Made by a program: the position numbers and the translations under genes. From positions 62,001 to 126,000 of the forward strand of contig NZ_LN852694.1 of the NCBI RefSeq assembly GCF_001244545.1: 64,000 nucleotides of DNA, read 5' to 3'. This document shows, in pieces, positions 52,061-61,152 of the stretch. The notes beneath the pieces were generated by a model. It saw only the letters and a list, made by a program, of their open reading frames with translations, was not told the origin of the DNA and did no database searches. Source of the DNA: Candidatus Stoquefichus sp. SB1 (GTDB taxonomy: Bacteria > Bacillota_I > Bacilli_A > Erysipelotrichales > Coprobacillaceae). Within the stretch, counting starts at the first letter, position 1, and every line of letters starts with the position of its first letter.

Positions 52061-52591
52061 ATGCATATGAATAATCGAGAAATTGATCAATTAATTTTAA
52101 ACATTCCCCAAATTGATAATGCTTTTCATGAATTATATGAGAAAACACGAACGCTTGTTTTTGCATATATTATGAGCATTATCAAAAACTATGATGATAG
52201 CAGTGATATTATGCAGGAGACTTATATAAAAATATATCTGGCAAGTTCTTCTTATCATTCTATGAAAAAGCCACTTGCATGGATATTTACAATTGCTAGA
52301 AATGAATGTTATCTGCATTTACGAAGAAGAAAAATGAATCAGGAATATGATGATAATATGTCTTTGCCTCAAGTGAATAATTGGGAAACACAAATGATAT
52401 TAGAACAATTATTTCAAGCTCTTAATGATAAAGAAAGAGAAATTATTATTATGCATTCATTATGGGGCTTTAAGCATTATGAAATTGCAACATTATTAGA
52501 TATTCCATTAGCAACTTCACTATCTTGCTATCGACGAGGAATGAAAAAAATGAAAGAAATAGGAGGTAGAGTGGATGAAAGATTTAAATGA
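52061..52591 (+). CDS. ECF-type RNA polymerase sigma factor
   Basis: A 176-residue sigma-70 group 4 factor. Region 2 spans about 20-90 (YIMSIIKNYDDSSDIMQETYIKIY, KPLAWIFTIARNECYLHLRR; each shown in part). Region 4 spans about 115-170 (LNDKEREIIIMHSLWGFKHYEIA, LATSLSCYRRGMKKM) and is the -35 recognition helix. GGGGAG precedes the ATG at 52061; an ATG two codons later is also possible. Its last 17 bases overlap the anti-sigma gene, a standard coupling in sigma/anti-sigma pairs. Confidence 0.9.
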   Translation: MHMNNREIDQLILNIPQIDNAFHELYEKTRTLVFAYIMSIIKNYDDSSDIMQETYIKIYLASSSYHSMKKPLAWIFTIARNECYLHLRRRKMNQEYDDNMSLPQVNNWETQMILEQLFQALNDKEREIIIMHSLWGFKHYEIATLLDIPLATSLSCYRRGMKKMKEIGGRVDERFK

Positions 52592-53945
52592 GGTTTTTCA
52601 GGAAATTACACCAGATTCTTATCAGTCAATCCAAACTCAATTACAAAATAGAAATGAAGAGATTGTTGTGGAACAACCCAAAAAGAAAAGAAAAATATAT
52701 TATGTATTACCAGTTATGATGATTGTTTTGATTGCAATATTGACAATCAGTCAAAAACCAAATCAAGTCATAGCCACTGTAGGATTTGATGTTAATCCAA
52801 GTATTGCTATAGATATTGATGATCAAAATAAAATTGTAAAAGTTCATCCATATAATCAAGATGGTCAAAAGATTATTGGAAGTATGAAATTAGAAGGCAA
52901 TGATATTGAATTAGCAACAAATGCATTAATTGGTTCTATGTTAAAACAAGGGTATATTAATGAATTAAAAAATTCTTTACTAATATCAGTGACGGGAGAT
53001 AATCAAGAAAAGAATGAACAATTGCGTATGATATTATCAATGCATATTGATGAATATTTAAAAGACAGTCAAATTCAAGGCTCTATTTTATCACAAACTG
53101 TTTCACAAAAAAAAGATATTGAAGCTTTAGCAAGTCAATATCAAATTTCTATTGGAAAAGCAGAAGTGATTCAAGAACTGATTCATAAGAATAACCGTTA
53201 TACTTTTGAGTCCTTAAAAGATTTATCAGTCAATGATTTAAATATTCTATTGCATAAAAATAGCATAGATATTCATACAACAGGAACACAAGCAAGTGAA
53301 AGTGGATATATTGGTAAAGAAAAAGCAATGGAAATTGCTGTGAATGATGCCAAAGTTTCACAACCAACAAATCAACATGTAGAATTGGATTATGATGATA
53401 ATGTCATGATTTATGAAGTGGAGTTTGTAAAAGGAGATATAAAATATGAGTATGATATTCAAGCAAGTCACGGGAAAATACTTAAGAAAGAAGTAGAGGA
53501 AAAAAAGAAAAATCATACCAATAATCAATCTTCATCACAAAAACAAATAACAGAAGCTAAGGCAAAAACAATAGCAATGAATCATGCAAGTGTTCAAAAT
53601 ATTACTCAATATGAATTCCATAAAGATGATGAAGATGGACAATTGGAATATGAAATGAAATTTGTTAGTGGTCAATATAAATATGAATATACGATTCGTG
53701 CTCATGATGGAAAAATATTGGATTATGAAAAAAAGGATATGGGTGAAATCAAGGTTACTCAAGAAGAGGCTAAAAATAAAGCCTTTCAACATGCAAATGT
53801 GAAAGCTACACAAGTTAAAAATTTAGAAGTCGAACTAGAAAAGAAATACTATGAAGTGAAATTTGAAGTTGGGCAATATGAATATGAGTATCATATTGAT
53901 AAAATCAATGGTCAAATATTGTTTCATGAAAAAGAAAGAGATTAA
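52575..53945 (+). CDS. RsgI-like membrane anti-sigma factor with PepSY domains
   Basis: A 456-residue single-pass protein. About 40 cytosolic residues would hold the sigma factor. A transmembrane helix lies at 41-59. An outside segment VIATVGFDVNPSIAIDID (65-82) has Asn74-Pro75, the site at which RsgI-type anti-sigma proteins are reported to self-cleave. Three PepSY-like units follow (about 245-305, 325-385 and 390-455; EYEYDIQASHGKIL, EYTIRAHDGKIL, EYHIDKINGQILF). They probably sense an extracellular signal. AGGAGGT lies 7 bases before the ATG. It overlaps the ECF gene by 17 bases. Confidence 0.85.
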   Translation: MKDLNEVFQEITPDSYQSIQTQLQNRNEEIVVEQPKKKRKIYYVLPVMMIVLIAILTISQKPNQVIATVGFDVNPSIAIDIDDQNKIVKVHPYNQDGQKIIGSMKLEGNDIELATNALIGSMLKQGYINELKNSLLISVTGDNQEKNEQLRMILSMHIDEYLKDSQIQGSILSQTVSQKKDIEALASQYQISIGKAEVIQELIHKNNRYTFESLKDLSVNDLNILLHKNSIDIHTTGTQASESGYIGKEKAMEIAVNDAKVSQPTNQHVELDYDDNVMIYEVEFVKGDIKYEYDIQASHGKILKKEVEEKKKNHTNNQSSSQKQITEAKAKTIAMNHASVQNITQYEFHKDDEDGQLEYEMKFVSGQYKYEYTIRAHDGKILDYEKKDMGEIKVTQEEAKNKAFQHANVKATQVKNLEVELEKKYYEVKFEVGQYEYEYHIDKINGQILFHEKERD

Positions 53946-55792: not shown

Positions 55793-55981
55793 CTAGGCTA
55801 CATTTTTTTGAATCTCATTTTTAAGCTCATACAGTAAATGTCTCACTTCTTCTAAGTTGTCAATAACTGATGAAATTTGTTGCTTTTGCTGAAATGATAA
55901 ATCATCGTTATTAAATTTAACTAAAGTCAAAAGTGTCTCATATAATAAATCATTTGCTTTATCTACGCTGTTATTATTCAT
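55793..55981 (-). CDS. Small coiled helical protein
   Basis: A 62-residue, acidic, alpha-helical protein with a heptad-like C-terminal half (NLEEVRHLLYELKNEIQKN). No family is recognised and no membrane segment is seen. A ribosome site is present upstream (GAGGT on the minus strand) and a strong terminator follows, so it looks like a genuine single gene. It may pair with a partner by coiled-coil contact. Confidence 0.6.
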   Translation of the reverse strand: MNNNSVDKANDLLYETLLTLVKFNNDDLSFQQKQQISSVIDNLEEVRHLLYELKNEIQKNVA

Positions 55982-56012: not shown

Positions 56013-56465
56013 TTATACTATAAAATGACAACAAAGAATTATAAAGACAATCAAGATGTAGCTATAATTCCAAACTTTTTTTAAAAATAAAACAAAAATA
56101 AAACCAAAACATTGAATTGCTATGTTTATACATAAGACACCAAATGGGATTTGTCGAAAAAAGTAGAAAAATAAGATAAAATGTAAAAAAATGAAAAAAA
56201 CTATATATTTTAAGAATTGTTTGAAAAGAAGTTTCAAACAGTCTATACGATTAAGACGAATGCGAATAAAAGTATAAAGAATAATATATTGATAAACGAT
56301 CTGATAAAAATATGTACACCAAAAAATTTGGATAGCTATAAATATAAAATAACGAAAATCAATTATTGGATAATGTAAAAGAATAGCTGGTAACATAGTT
56401 TTATAAAGCGAATATAAATATCCAAATAATAATGTATAAACAAGACTTGTTTTAATCCATTTCAT
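56013..56465 (-). CDS. Membrane protein of the ABC exporter operon
   Basis: A 150-residue protein with about four transmembrane helices (starting near residues 7, 30, 75 and 120). It is the last gene of the exporter operon and overlaps the ATPase gene by 14 bases if the ATG at 56465 is used, or 32 bases with the ATG at 56483; no clear ribosome site helps decide. It is likely a third membrane subunit of the transporter. Family unknown. Confidence 0.6.
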   Translation of the reverse strand: MKWIKTSLVYTLLFGYLYSLYKTMLPAILLHYPIIDFRYFIFIAIQIFWCTYFYQIVYQYIILYTFIRIRLNRIDCLKLLFKQFLKYIVFFIFLHFILFFYFFRQIPFGVLCINIAIQCFGFIFVLFLKKVWNYSYILIVFIILCCHFIV

Positions 56466-57060
56466 CTTGTTTGAATTGACCATTTTCTAAATGATATATA
56501 TGTGTATAATGAATTTCTTTGAGATAGTCATGTGCTGCAATAACAATTGTTTTTCCTTGGGCATTGAATTCATTTATTGTTTGACAAAATGTTTGAATGG
56601 ATTCAGCATCCAGTCCTCTGGTTGGTTCATCTAATAAAATAAGATTCTGATCTTCCATAATCGCTTGAATAATACCAGCTTTCTGACGCATCCCTAGAGA
56701 ATAATTTTTTAATTTTATTCGACTTTGATAATCTAATTGAAATAATTGGCAAAGTTGTTCTATTTTTTGAGGATCATGATTGTGATTTAAGGAAGCTAAG
56801 AATTTTAAGTTAAATGCAAGTGTTTCATTTTCAAGAAAACCAGGATTTTCAATCAATGCACCAATATGTATATCAGAAGATATTTGAATTGTTCCTGAAT
56901 CAGGTTTTAATATATCACAAATCAACTTAAATAAAGTTGATTTACCAGAACCATTAATACCATGGATATAAACCAATTGACCTGTTTGAATTTTTAAATT
57001 TAAATGATCTAAAACGAGATGATGATGAAAAGATTTTGATAAATCATGTATTTCTAACAT
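56452..57060 (-). CDS. ABC exporter ATP-binding protein
   Basis: A 202-residue ATPase. Walker A GINGSGKST at 34-42, signature YSLGMRQK at 120-127, Walker B LILLDEP at 140-146 and the H-loop His (AAHD). It is of the short type that serves ABC-2-like exporters for peptides, lantibiotics or lipids. The signature SLGMRQ replaces LSGGQ, common in this subgroup. It is third in an operon of membrane proteins and overlaps the next gene. Confidence 0.92.
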   Translation of the reverse strand: MLEIHDLSKSFHHHLVLDHLNLKIQTGQLVYIHGINGSGKSTLFKLICDILKPDSGTIQISSDIHIGALIENPGFLENETLAFNLKFLASLNHNHDPQKIEQLCQLFQLDYQSRIKLKNYSLGMRQKAGIIQAIMEDQNLILLDEPTRGLDAESIQTFCQTINEFNAQGKTIVIAAHDYLKEIHYTHIYHLENGQFKQDEMD

Positions 57061-57071
57061 AGTAAACTCCT

Positions 57072-57569
57072 TTATGATAAATTAATAAATAAAATATGAA
57101 ATAAAAAATTAACAAAAATAGGTAATGCTAAATAAATAAAATTTTTCTTTTGACCAATCTGTAAATAAATAATCGTTGTTTCTATACCCATGATAATAAA
57201 ATTATAAATCATAAAAACAACAGTGATTTGAAAAGATTCACTAGGAATTGCTCCAAAAAAGAAAGCATAACTTATATAAATGATAAGTGTATATAGTGCT
57301 CCTAATAGAAACAATGCTACATATGTCCATATATAAACTGCTTTTTCTCCAAGACGAATGACCATTGGTTGAAAGAAAACATTGAGTCGATAAGCAAACT
57401 GATAAGTCATTAAAAGAAAAATGTTATTCATATAAACAGTTAAATAATGAGAGTAAATTAAACATATTGTATAAGTGTTTTGACCACATAAAGTGGGGGA
57501 TGCAATAAGCATAATCATTAATAATAAAAGTATTCGTTTATCTAATAGTTGATAGAGTTTTTTAATCAT
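57072..57569 (-). CDS. ABC exporter membrane subunit, small
   Basis: A 165-residue protein with about five hydrophobic helices and a basic first few residues (KKLYQLLDKR). Its start overlaps the end of the larger permease gene by 8 bases, and the ATPase starts 11 bases after its stop. It should form the membrane part of the transporter with the 58404 product. No family name is assigned. Confidence 0.65.
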   Translation of the reverse strand: MIKKLYQLLDKRILLLLMIMLIASPTLCGQNTYTICLIYSHYLTVYMNNIFLLMTYQFAYRLNVFFQPMVIRLGEKAVYIWTYVALFLLGALYTLIIYISYAFFFGAIPSESFQITVVFMIYNFIIMGIETTIIYLQIGQKKNFIYLALPIFVNFLFHILFINLS

Positions 57570-58404
57570 ATTGTTCTCTCCGTTTTTTTAATATTTGAAA
57601 ACATCCAAAAGAGAAACCACTATAAATGCCAGCACTCACAAGATAGAGAGTAAGATGTGAAAAACCAAATGGATTGGCTCGTACATTTTCCATACCAATC
57701 GCAACAAGATTATTAATTTGTAAAATAAATGCCAGATCAGGATTAGGTAAGTAACCTTGAATTAAAGCTGGAATCAGGACAAGTAGAATCCCAAAAATGA
57801 CACCAAAACAACGATAAATATATTTATTTGTAATAATGACTTGTAATGAAAATAAAAGACTAGAGACAATTCCGTAACCAATTGCTGTCAATACAGTAAA
57901 CAAGAAAAGACTTAGAATTTCATTTTGGCAAAAAAGTTGTGTTGTACAATAATAATTTTCAGGATATGTCATTGTATTGAATTGAATAGGTGCATAAAAG
58001 AAATGAATTGTTATTAAAATGAATATTTGAATAATGAAAACAGTCATTATAGAGATCATAATATTTTTGATAAAAATATTATGATAATAACTTCGTTTAG
58101 ATATACGAGCTTCAATCATATAGTCCGCATGATTTTGATGAATATTTAAAAAATCATAAGATATCAGATTCGGCATCAATAACATAAGTAATATAAATAA
58201 AAATGGATTAACGCCAACACAATAAAGATAATAAAAAAATTCTAAGCCAGCATTGGGATAGGTTTGACTATATTGATCATAAGAATAAATCGAATTATGA
58301 TAAACAGTTGATATACTCATTAAAATAAGTACAAGAATTCCCAATACCAATAATCCCTTTTCAATTGTGAGAAAAGGAGACCATAATTGCTTTGTTTGTT
58401 TCAT
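57562..58404 (-). CDS. ABC exporter membrane permease, large
   Basis: A 280-residue permease with about six or seven transmembrane helices and an external loop (YHNSIYSYDQYSQTYPN) near residue 31. It resembles ABC-2-type permeases. It leads the operon, after AAAGGAGG, and is divergent from the LytTR regulator gene. The intergenic -35 box TTGACA and a direct repeat beside it suggest activation by that regulator. Confidence 0.75.
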   Translation of the reverse strand: MKQTKQLWSPFLTIEKGLLVLGILVLILMSISTVYHNSIYSYDQYSQTYPNAGLEFFYYLYCVGVNPFLFILLMLLMPNLISYDFLNIHQNHADYMIEARISKRSYYHNIFIKNIMISIMTVFIIQIFILITIHFFYAPIQFNTMTYPENYYCTTQLFCQNEILSLFLFTVLTAIGYGIVSSLLFSLQVIITNKYIYRCFGVIFGILLVLIPALIQGYLPNPDLAFILQINNLVAIGMENVRANPFGFSHLTLYLVSAGIYSGFSFGCFQILKKRREQYD

Positions 58405-58431
58405 ATTTTCCTCCTTTAATTGATATATAAT

Positions 58432-58460
58432 CTTTTACAGATTAACAAAAAAAATGTCAA
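58432..58460 (-). promoter_or_regulatory. Promoter of the ABC exporter operon
   Basis: On the minus strand TTGACA at 58460-58455 is followed after 17 bases by TAAAAG, a weak -10. The weak -10 fits a promoter that needs an activator. Confidence 0.55.
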
Positions 58461-58471
58461 AAAAAGAAACG

Positions 58472-58508
58472 ATGGCGTAAAAAGTGCACAAAATGGCGTA
58501 AAAGTGAC
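58472..58508. promoter_or_regulatory. Direct repeat, candidate LytTR binding site
   Basis: ATGGCGTAAAAAGTGCAC begins at 58472 and ATGGCGTAAAAGTGAC at 58493. The copies are offset by 21 bases, two helical turns, as in AgrA/PlnC-type sites. They lie just upstream of the exporter -35 box. Confidence 0.7.
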
Positions 58509-58559
58509 ATTTTTTTGTCAGAATTTGTAGTAAAATATATCTGATTGAAAGGAGAGCAT

Positions 58560-59261
58560 ATGAAAATATTAATTTGTGATGAAGATGAAAAATATATTGA
58601 ATATTTAATAGAAAAGATTAAATCTTTTCCTTGTGATGAGGAATTACTTTTTGAAAGTTATACTGAGACACCTGGAATTGCTCGTCGAATTGAAACTGAA
58701 AATTTTGATATTGCTTATTTAGGAGCAGTTATTCATGGTAGAAATGGTTTTGAATTAGGGAGAATGATTCATCAACATTATCCAGACTGTATTTTGTTTT
58801 ATGTTTGTGAAGATTATAAATATATGCATGAAGTCTTTAGAGCATATGGTTTCCAAATGTTACTGAAGACTCAGGAAAAATTATTAGCTAGTGAGTTTCA
58901 AAGAGCTTTGACAGTTTATCAAAAACTTCATTTTCATGTATTATTTCATCTTGAAGATGAAACAACACATGATTTTATCCCAGCTGAAATTGTTTATATT
59001 GAAACAACAGATGAAACAACAACAGTCATTACAATGGGGGAACGTTATTGTGGTTATTTTGAAAAATTAAAGCCACTCAAACAAAAATTATTAGAATATC
59101 ATTTCTTTCAGATGCATCCACAATATTTTGTAAATATGGAGCATATTGAATTGGTGAGAAGTGGTGAATTGGTTATGGATAATGGGGATTGTATTCCAAC
59201 TTCAGCAATGAATAGAGAAGTCATTGATGATGCGATTCAATCATTTATGGACAGAATTTAA
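58560..59261 (+). CDS. LytTR-type response regulator lacking the phospho-acceptor Asp
   Basis: A 233-residue regulator. Residues 2-115 are a receiver-like domain: Asp7 and Glu8 are present, but the position of the phospho-Asp is Gly55 in FDIAYLGAVIHG. Residues 133-228 are a LytTR DNA-binding domain (HDFIPAEIVYIETTDETTTV, FEKLKPLKQKLLEYHFFQMHPQYFVNMEHIE; shown in part). It is likely phosphorylation-independent. No histidine kinase is beside it. The ATG at 58560 follows AAAGGAG. It is divergent from the ABC operon and probably its activator. Confidence 0.9.
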   Translation: MKILICDEDEKYIEYLIEKIKSFPCDEELLFESYTETPGIARRIETENFDIAYLGAVIHGRNGFELGRMIHQHYPDCILFYVCEDYKYMHEVFRAYGFQMLLKTQEKLLASEFQRALTVYQKLHFHVLFHLEDETTHDFIPAEIVYIETTDETTTVITMGERYCGYFEKLKPLKQKLLEYHFFQMHPQYFVNMEHIELVRSGELVMDNGDCIPTSAMNREVIDDAIQSFMDRI

Positions 59262-59467: not shown

Positions 59468-60919
59468 ATGGGAAAGAAATTATTGAAAAAAGCAAGTGTG
59501 GCATTATTAGCCGTGATGATGTCATTAGCATTGATGCCAATGAAAGAAGTTCATGCTATAAGTTATCAATTTGCAAATATCGAAGTTGGAGATATCTTGA
59601 AAGCAGGTGATACTTTTAATTTGTCTGAAAACAATGAACAAATACAAGAGGTAGCTTATTATAAACACAATGGTGGACATATTGCTTCAGGAATGAATTA
59701 TAATAGTGGAACGTATACAGTACCGTCTAATGTTTCTACCGCAAGTTATGATCAATGGGAAGTTACAAGCATAACACTTTATAACAATTCAACAAATAGA
59801 TATTTTATGACTTTAAAGGGAATTCGTTCTACTGCGACAGTTGATGATGTTATCGTTAAAGGTGGAATAGGACAAAATATACAAATTGAGCCAACATTAG
59901 TTAAAATTCATACAAATGTAGAAATCAACAAAGCTGTGGGTGGTACAGTATCAGGCTGGTTTAAAAATCTACCTGCTGGACTGGTTGCAATTATTGATAG
60001 TGATGATTCTGAAAATGGAATAATTACTTTAAAAATATATGGACAGGCAACAACGGCGGTAAGTGAAGCAATGGAAATTGTTATTCCTAAGGAAGATATT
60101 GATGGTGCAAGTAAAAATTTAGAAGTAACTTCAAATTCCAATGCTAAATTTGAAATAGGAGAACGTGAAGCAACTGTAGAAAATGTTGTAATCACAGGTT
60201 CTGTAGGAGAAACAATAACAAATCAAACATTTAAGATTACAATTAAAAATGATGAATTTGTCAAAAATTTAAGTGCTACATCTAATCTCAAAACAAATCT
60301 TCCGAGTGATTTATTTGTGGTGTATTCTCGTTTAATAGATGAAACTCATGTTGTTGTTAGTGTGACTGGAACACCATTAGCTAGTGAAAAAGGGACTCTT
60401 CAACTCACAATTCCTGATGAATGGTTAAAGAGTGGAGAATTCTTAAAAGTCACTGCTAATTCAAATGCTAAATATGATATTGGAAGTGTCAAAATAACTG
60501 CTGGAACTAATTCATCACATAAAACTGGTACTACTGGTGATTTAAAATTTACATGTAGTGGAAAATTAGATGATTTTGTTGGTATTTATGTAGATAATGC
60601 ATTGGTTAACCCAAGTCATTATACTGTTCAATCTGGAAGTACAATTCTTACTTTGAAAGCCAATTATTTAAATACTTTGGCCTCAGGAACACATACATTA
60701 AAATTCCAATATAAAAATAATGTTTCCGTTACAACAACTTTTAAAATTTTGGCTGATGACAGCAAGAAAAAACCACCAGTTAATCAAAAAGATAAGACAA
60801 ACAATTCAAAGACACCTCAAACAGCTGATATGTCTCCAATTGCTTTCTATTCATTACTAATTATGGTCAGTGGACTTGCTGGAGTATTTGTGCTAAAAAG
60901 AAAAAAAGAACAAATTTAA
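59468..60919 (+). CDS. Secreted surface protein with repeat modules and a PxTxD sorting signal
   Basis: A 483-residue wall protein. The signal peptide is cut after VHA near residue 30. Two tandem modules of about 115 and 110 residues end in SNSNAKFEIG and ANSNAKYDIG and so share one origin. A CBM_X2-like unit follows (about 350-425; KLDDFVGIYVDNALVNPSHY and TLKFQYKN). The C-terminus has TPQTAD at 449-454, a helix and an RKKK tail. It is likely anchored by sortase and may bind carbohydrate. It lies under a candidate cre site. AAAAGGAG precedes the ATG. Confidence 0.82.
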   Translation: MGKKLLKKASVALLAVMMSLALMPMKEVHAISYQFANIEVGDILKAGDTFNLSENNEQIQEVAYYKHNGGHIASGMNYNSGTYTVPSNVSTASYDQWEVTSITLYNNSTNRYFMTLKGIRSTATVDDVIVKGGIGQNIQIEPTLVKIHTNVEINKAVGGTVSGWFKNLPAGLVAIIDSDDSENGIITLKIYGQATTAVSEAMEIVIPKEDIDGASKNLEVTSNSNAKFEIGEREATVENVVITGSVGETITNQTFKITIKNDEFVKNLSATSNLKTNLPSDLFVVYSRLIDETHVVVSVTGTPLASEKGTLQLTIPDEWLKSGEFLKVTANSNAKYDIGSVKITAGTNSSHKTGTTGDLKFTCSGKLDDFVGIYVDNALVNPSHYTVQSGSTILTLKANYLNTLASGTHTLKFQYKNNVSVTTTFKILADDSKKKPPVNQKDKTNNSKTPQTADMSPIAFYSLLIMVSGLAGVFVLKRKKEQI

Positions 60920-61048: not shown

Positions 61049-61053
61049 TCACT

Positions 61054-61152
61054 TAGTTATACAACTGGCGGAAGTGGAATGAACCACATGGAGTATAATA
61101 GGAAAGAGTCGACCGTCTGGGCAAAAGTCTGGATGAGTACGCTCTTTTTTTT
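61054..61152 (+). ncRNA. ZTP riboswitch (pfl motif)
   Basis: TTATAC at 61057-61062 pairs with GTATAA at 61093-61098 (P1), the conserved ACTGGCGG follows at 61063-61071, GTGG at 61074-61077 pairs with CCAC at 61084-61087, and the 3' part has CCGTCTGGGC at 61113-61122. A terminator-type end with an AAGAG/CTCTT stem and T8 (61145-61152) is the expression platform. This layout is the pfl/ZTP motif, which senses ZMP/ZTP when 10-formyl-THF is short, and turns on fhs and purine genes. Placement before fhs-purE-purC fits that role. Confidence 0.85.

Follow-up and report, generated by a model that had tools for sequence, protein, structure and literature searches.

An Asp-less LytTR response regulator, conserved tandem repeats and a divergent ABC exporter: candidate parts of a split bacteriocin-like system in Candidatus Stoquefichus sp. 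SB1

Regulators of the AgrA/ComE/PlnC type combine a receiver with a LytTR domain and are associated with tandem direct repeats two helical turns apart near the promoter, with published half-sites of the form TACGTTAAT or ACCACTTAT. In the ALR and PsR regulators the phosphorylatable Asp is replaced by Gly, Glu or Ser, the Lys of the pocket is retained, and the acid pair and the Thr/Ser position are eroded; in the ALR survey, Gly is the frequent substitution without a solved representative. ALR and pseudo-receiver regulators are precedents for action without the Asp (PMC4395418, PMC12632262), and the D60A form of Streptococcus mutans ComE acts without ComD, i.e., as a phosphorylation-independent LytTR regulator (PMC12323615). 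A 2025 perspective writes that the mechanisms by which pseudo-receivers of bacteria are turned on or off "remain a mystery" (PMC12632262). Kinase-free LytTR control is also found in the LRS (HdrRM, BrsRM), in which repeats precede the promoter of the regulator itself and which are in some cases linked to ABC transporters. Finally, lactococcin 972 cassettes and the LanFEG and PmtABCD systems associate a small signal-peptide protein with a dedicated ABC transporter of ABC-2 fold, sometimes together with a LytTR regulator and a kinase.

The locus described here, in a 64-kb stretch of the genome of Candidatus Stoquefichus sp. SB1 (hereafter the window), shares these features with each system but departs from all of them (Table 1). 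In contrast with AgrA/ComE/PlnC-type regulators, its LytTR regulator has no phospho-Asp and no adjacent kinase, and its half-site letters differ. Unlike ALR/PsR regulators, it carries a LytTR output domain and belongs to a clade-wide series from Asp to Glu, Ser and Gly on one exporter locus. Unlike LRS regulators, it has a receiver domain and is not followed by a co-transcribed membrane inhibitor. Two small permeases and a 156-aa membrane protein replace the large TIGR01654 protein of lactococcin 972 cassettes, none of the known families tested matches the associated secreted proteins, and the ATPase scores under curated cut-offs. A natural Asp, Glu, Ser and Gly series at one conserved promoter and exporter is well suited to asking how a kinase-less pseudo-receiver works.

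Table 1. Coordinates in the window of the regulator, the divergent exporter operon and the sites between them.
Feature	Coordinates	Strand	Basis or remark
Direct repeat 1, ATGGCGTAAAA	58472..58482	+	conserved 16-base unit 58474-58489
Direct repeat 2, ATGGCGTAAAA	58493..58503	+	conserved 16-base unit 58494-58509, continuing into GTGACA
Probable regulator promoter: GTGACATTTTTTT, then -10 TAAAAT 58531-58536	58504..58536	+	sequence; top intergenic conservation, 0.92 at 58505-58514
Possible exporter promoter: -35 TTGACA 58460-58455, 17 bp, weak -10 TAAAAG 58437-58432	58432..58460	-	sequence
Asp-less LytTR response regulator, 233 aa	58560..59261	+	Pfam LytTR, active-site comparison, tree, structure model
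PERM1, ABC-2 type permease, 280 aa	57562..58404	-	no Pfam family; conserved in relatives; weak fold match to NosY, PmtD
PERM2, small membrane subunit, 165 aa	57072..57569	-	conserved in relatives
ABC ATPase, 202 aa	56452..57060	-	PF00005, 2.1e-24
TM4, membrane protein, 156 aa, last exporter subunit	56013..56483	-	conserved in operon
S62, soluble conserved protein, 62 aa, after exporter in window-type loci	55793..55981	-	DegQ-like match E 0.036, under cut-off

The LytTR domain of the regulator (approximately 58980-59216) is recognized by Pfam (PF04397, E 1.1e-12, 48.4 bits, cut-off 22.6), while the receiver domain scores under the Pfam cut-off (18.5 vs 30.2 bits). In the predicted structure (pLDDT 81), residues 1-126 resemble receivers with Z up to 18.8, and the top full-length Foldseek match of the model is ComE (4cbv). 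The ATG at 58560, preceded by the ribosome-binding site AGGAG, is the favoured start, a TTG at 58545 being an in-frame start further upstream. Codon 55 is GGA (58722-58724), which places Gly at the phospho-Asp position, as a first-pass annotation made from the sequence had noted; Asp occupies the equivalent position in 44 further LytTR response regulators from related genomes. The same annotation saw no kinase nearby, and indeed no GHKL kinase is present in the window or at the orthologous loci, each of the genome's four strongest GHKL kinases adjoining a different LytTR regulator. The gene following the regulator is fhs in relatives; in the window it encodes a protein with a signal peptide, a wall-anchor-like C terminus and a weak CBM_X2 match (59468-60919), which lies between the regulator and fhs in this genome only. 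At 61051-61129, fhs and the pur genes are preceded by a ZMP/ZTP riboswitch (RF01750, 53.2 bits).

Candidatus Stoquefichus massiliensis is of the same genus as the present genome; its regulator shows 68% identity and has Glu at the phospho position. Synteny extends to nine other genomes (including one frameshift-ridden assembly and some loci cut by contig ends) and comprises a flavin-reductase-like gene, a hydrolase, the 62-aa protein, the exporter, the regulator, and fhs and pur genes, with regulator and exporter diverging around the repeat site in 10/10 genomes. Across the nine readable regulators the phospho position is G (window), E, G, S, G, S, G, G and D, i.e., Asp is missing in eight. 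Among orthologues adjoining the exporter, Asp occurs solely in that of the deepest relative (G029, 33% identical), which has no kinase near this locus; no close relative was found to combine a restored Asp with a kinase. In a tree of 66 regulators, the exporter-linked ones group with a second, mostly Asp-less set, which has Glu (AFIEM...) in 8/11 members, and Asp is present in all 44 rows outside the combined group.

Among the orthologues the acid pair and the Thr/Ser position vary and the pocket Lys is constant. Receiver dN/dS is 0.10-0.35, indicating purifying selection, and the domain is therefore kept for some use; this low ratio rejects pseudogene decay of the exporter-linked clade. In one assembly (G001) broken frames affect fhs and the exporter too, and look like assembly errors. 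One use of the domain might be direct sensing of a ligand or of redox state, e.g., of the exporter substrate by a one-component regulator: ligand-binding pseudo-receivers are known (PMC12632262), and all nine orthologues that were aligned have Cys6 and Cys77. We consider this improbable, as no conserved novel pocket was identified and Cys6 is also frequent in LytTR regulators that retain the Asp.

The two copies of ATGGCGTAAAA between the regulator and the exporter operon are exact and offset by 21 bp, as initially described, and constitute the sole exact tandem of at least 11 bases at an offset of 20-22 in the 64 kb (approximately 0.15 expected); the chance of such a tandem in this 155-bp intergenic region is P=0.002. 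The pair is unique in the 3.6-Mb genome even when 3 mismatches are allowed, the reversed-pattern control giving 5 chance matches. The evolutionarily kept register is a 16-base unit around AAAARTG with a period of 20-21, and conservation is 0.76 over the repeats and the adjoining GTGRCATTTTTT vs 0.52 in the rest of the intergenic region. Published LytTR half-sites (LytTR Regulatory Systems, PMC6193735) have no significant match in the window, and a matrix built from 39 published half-sites gives P 0.03-0.6 over the orthologues. Being conserved, and with their motif recurring at a sister LytTR locus (see below), the repeats look functional.

The first-pass annotation assigned this site to the exporter, and the site is indeed followed on one side by a divergent ABC-2 type exporter, with a -35 TTGACA at 11 bp from the nearer repeat and the weak -10 already remarked upon. 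However, the site is at least as much an element of the regulator's own promoter, which had been missed: the second repeat directly touches GTGACATTTTTTT, in the order AAAAGTG, 24 nt and the regulator -10, and the regulator-promoter side is the best-conserved part of the intergenic region. Because the repeats abut this promoter, the support for autoregulation is no weaker than that for control of the exporter. The repeats could even serve mainly for autoregulation, the exporter having its own promoter and merely neighbouring the site. Consistent with this, the Asp-to-Glu paralogue genes of the sister locus are preceded by a site of the same geometry, one relative (G021) has lost the exporter at this place and retains the repeats ahead of a split regulator, and the exporter TTGACA is not conserved in relatives, being peculiar to this genome, and was not found by a consensus promoter scan. 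Against it, exporter and regulator remain divergent around the site in every syntenic genome, four loci (L072-L075) have a TTGACT/TCGACT-like box approximately 9 bp beyond the repeat on the exporter side, and the repeat recurs at the paralogous locus, where a regulator is on one side of it and a secreted gene on the other. On balance, we consider a mainly autoregulatory role unlikely. Another relative (G022) has neither exporter nor repeats at this place. The entire intergenic region (58411-58554) forms a loose inverted repeat with 44-nt arms of 70% identity, in which AAAAAAATGTCA/TGACATTTTTTT is exact, and the two divergent promoters are thus partly mirror images.

The sister locus (G000:C4:650410-654504; L079 5410-9505) is conserved (orthologues L147-L151, L153 and L154) and includes the gene of a secreted protein. 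It consists of a regulator with Glu and a regulator with Asp, followed on the opposite strand by a GHKL kinase and a third regulator, also with Asp. The first regulator has Glu for Asp (AFIEM) in 8/8 exporter-bearing genomes examined, the acid pair and Lys being intact. A matrix trained solely on exporter-regulator intergenic regions, with 300 shuffles for P, identified tandem pairs (P<=0.003) upstream of 7/7 Asp-to-Glu paralogue genes tested and in 4/6 of the intergenic regions that separate the third regulator from the secreted gene; it was negative in two diverged regions (L152 and L155). Control loci gave two weak matches among seven unrelated LytTR loci (P=0.007 and 0.02), and in the window the matrix scores 38.5 at this intergenic region vs at best 11.1 among 33 other intergenic pieces. 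In the deepest relative, G029, the repeat is changed at both loci, which have an identical 13-mer in common (P=0.0025). Genome-wide, where patterns rather than the matrix were used, a relaxed repeat pattern gave three matches vs none for the reversed control, namely the regulator/exporter site, the secreted-gene site (C4:653979-654008) and one within a coding sequence. With these patterns, no wider regulon of the exact repeat was found in the genome. These comparisons provide good evidence that the repeats represent the recognition site of this LytTR subfamily, common to two loci.

A motif common to both loci would also fit an antagonist, i.e., an Asp-less regulator that occupies the sites of its phosphorylated sister regulators and damps their output, like PlnD with respect to PlnC, two proteins that share their repeats yet act in opposite directions (PMC2714321). 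We regard this as distinctly unlikely: the affinities of the window and kinase-locus sites may not overlap, because their flanking letters differ. The sharing of the motif nevertheless qualifies the earlier description of the activator as kinase-free, which holds at the locus but perhaps not for the circuit, since the same repeat family is present at a paralogous locus with a GHKL kinase and Asp-bearing regulators, upstream of the genome's single gene for the secreted family that adjoins this type of exporter elsewhere.

The divergent operon runs from 58404 down to 55793, in the order PERM1, PERM2, ABC ATPase, TM4 and S62. Fold matches of PERM1 are weak (best E 0.02), yet all point to ABC-2 permeases, and the best NCBIfam model for the ATPase is TIGR03740 (lantibiotic protection; 135.7 bits, under the cut-off of 309.75). 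Solved structures, PHROGs and PADLOC returned nothing informative for the permeases or the secreted protein. Distant homologues of the exporter adjoin LytTR regulators with kinases (L128, L131 and L137) or with degenerate kinase-like proteins (L132 and L138) and, also or instead, a signal-peptide-like protein of 130-160 aa. Derivation of the present arrangement by simple loss from a kinase-linked exporter cassette was rejected, because the regulators beside these kinase-linked exporters (L128, L131, L132, L137 and L138) fall in a distant clade; from the tree, the exporter rather appears to have changed regulators.

The exporter-adjacent secreted proteins are homologous to the secreted protein of the sister locus (83, 55 and 29 bits), and members of this family lie beside the four-gene ABC exporter at other loci (L129, L133, L136, L138, L144, L145, L189-L191 and L193-L195). 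Six of eight newly found and fetched members adjoin PERM1-PERM2-ATPase-TM4 operons (L189, L190, L191, L193, L194 and L195), the remaining two being located beside a regulator and kinase (G029) and on a contig that ends (G180). Exporter and secreted families co-occur in 18 of 316 genomes of the order (2.0 expected) and in 11/80 genera (3.4 expected), figures inflated by the relatedness of the genomes and by six model members picked by adjacency. Thirteen members of the secreted family gave nothing credible in Pfam, no solved relative was found, and four exporter-adjacent members have no credible NCBIfam match, TIGR01653 included. A single exporter of this type and a single secreted gene are encoded in the present genome, 534 kb apart, the latter at the kinase locus and adjoining the same kind of repeat. 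The secreted gene is present in 9/10 window-type genomes, the exception (G009) having regulator and exporter with no secreted gene found. The operon had been proposed to export a small molecule or peptide; an ABC-2 type exporter is borne out, but this signal-peptide protein, handled for immunity or removal, is a likelier substrate than an unspecified small molecule. These associations point to an unannotated secreted, possibly bacteriocin-like family with dedicated ABC pumps, and to a pump and a secreted protein that are physically separated yet retain a common control sequence.

Taken together, these data may reflect a split bacteriocin-like system, in which the Asp-less regulator drives itself and the pump while the remote kinase locus makes the secreted protein inducible, a tentative reading to which we give slightly less than even confidence. 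Its basis at the sequence level comprises Asp loss under purifying selection, conserved repeats and a motif at both loci, together with the exporter/secreted-protein cassette of other genomes and the single copy of each here; from these we infer DNA binding, activation rather than repression, a role in immunity and cross-talk of the loci. The Asp-less receiver-LytTR regulator would bind the 20/21-bp direct repeats without phosphorylation and, from this one divergent site, activate both its own gene and the operon of the ABC exporter. The latter would most likely be a pump that protects the cell against (or clears) a bacteriocin-like signal-peptide protein of approximately 140 aa. The remote GHKL kinase, with two Asp-bearing and one Asp-to-Glu LytTR regulator, would render the secreted protein inducible via the same type of repeat. 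Pump expression would then be independent of the kinase owing to the Asp-less regulator, and the two loci, despite their distance, would form one split regulon. The split-system reading is weakened because the published half-sites do not match significantly, the exporter -35 is not conserved, G009 lacks the secreted gene, G021 has repeats without exporter, and control loci gave two weak matches. A more far-reaching proposal, somewhat less probable, is that the pump with its Asp-less sister regulator and the secreted protein with its kinase and Asp-bearing regulators, on distant loci, are held together by one co-evolving direct-repeat code. Paralogues with and without a phosphorylatable residue would both read this code, and those lacking the Asp would set a kinase-independent floor or ceiling for immunity.

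Two further loci can be mentioned. Elsewhere in the genome (G000:C5:704-709 kb; L082), a lactococcin-972-like gene (TIGR01653 just under cut-off) is found with genes for a TIGR01654-like protein, an ABC ATPase, a LytTR regulator and a GHKL kinase. In the window, a sigma-factor-like gene followed by that of an RsgI-type anti-sigma factor with PepSY domains is located at 52061-53945.
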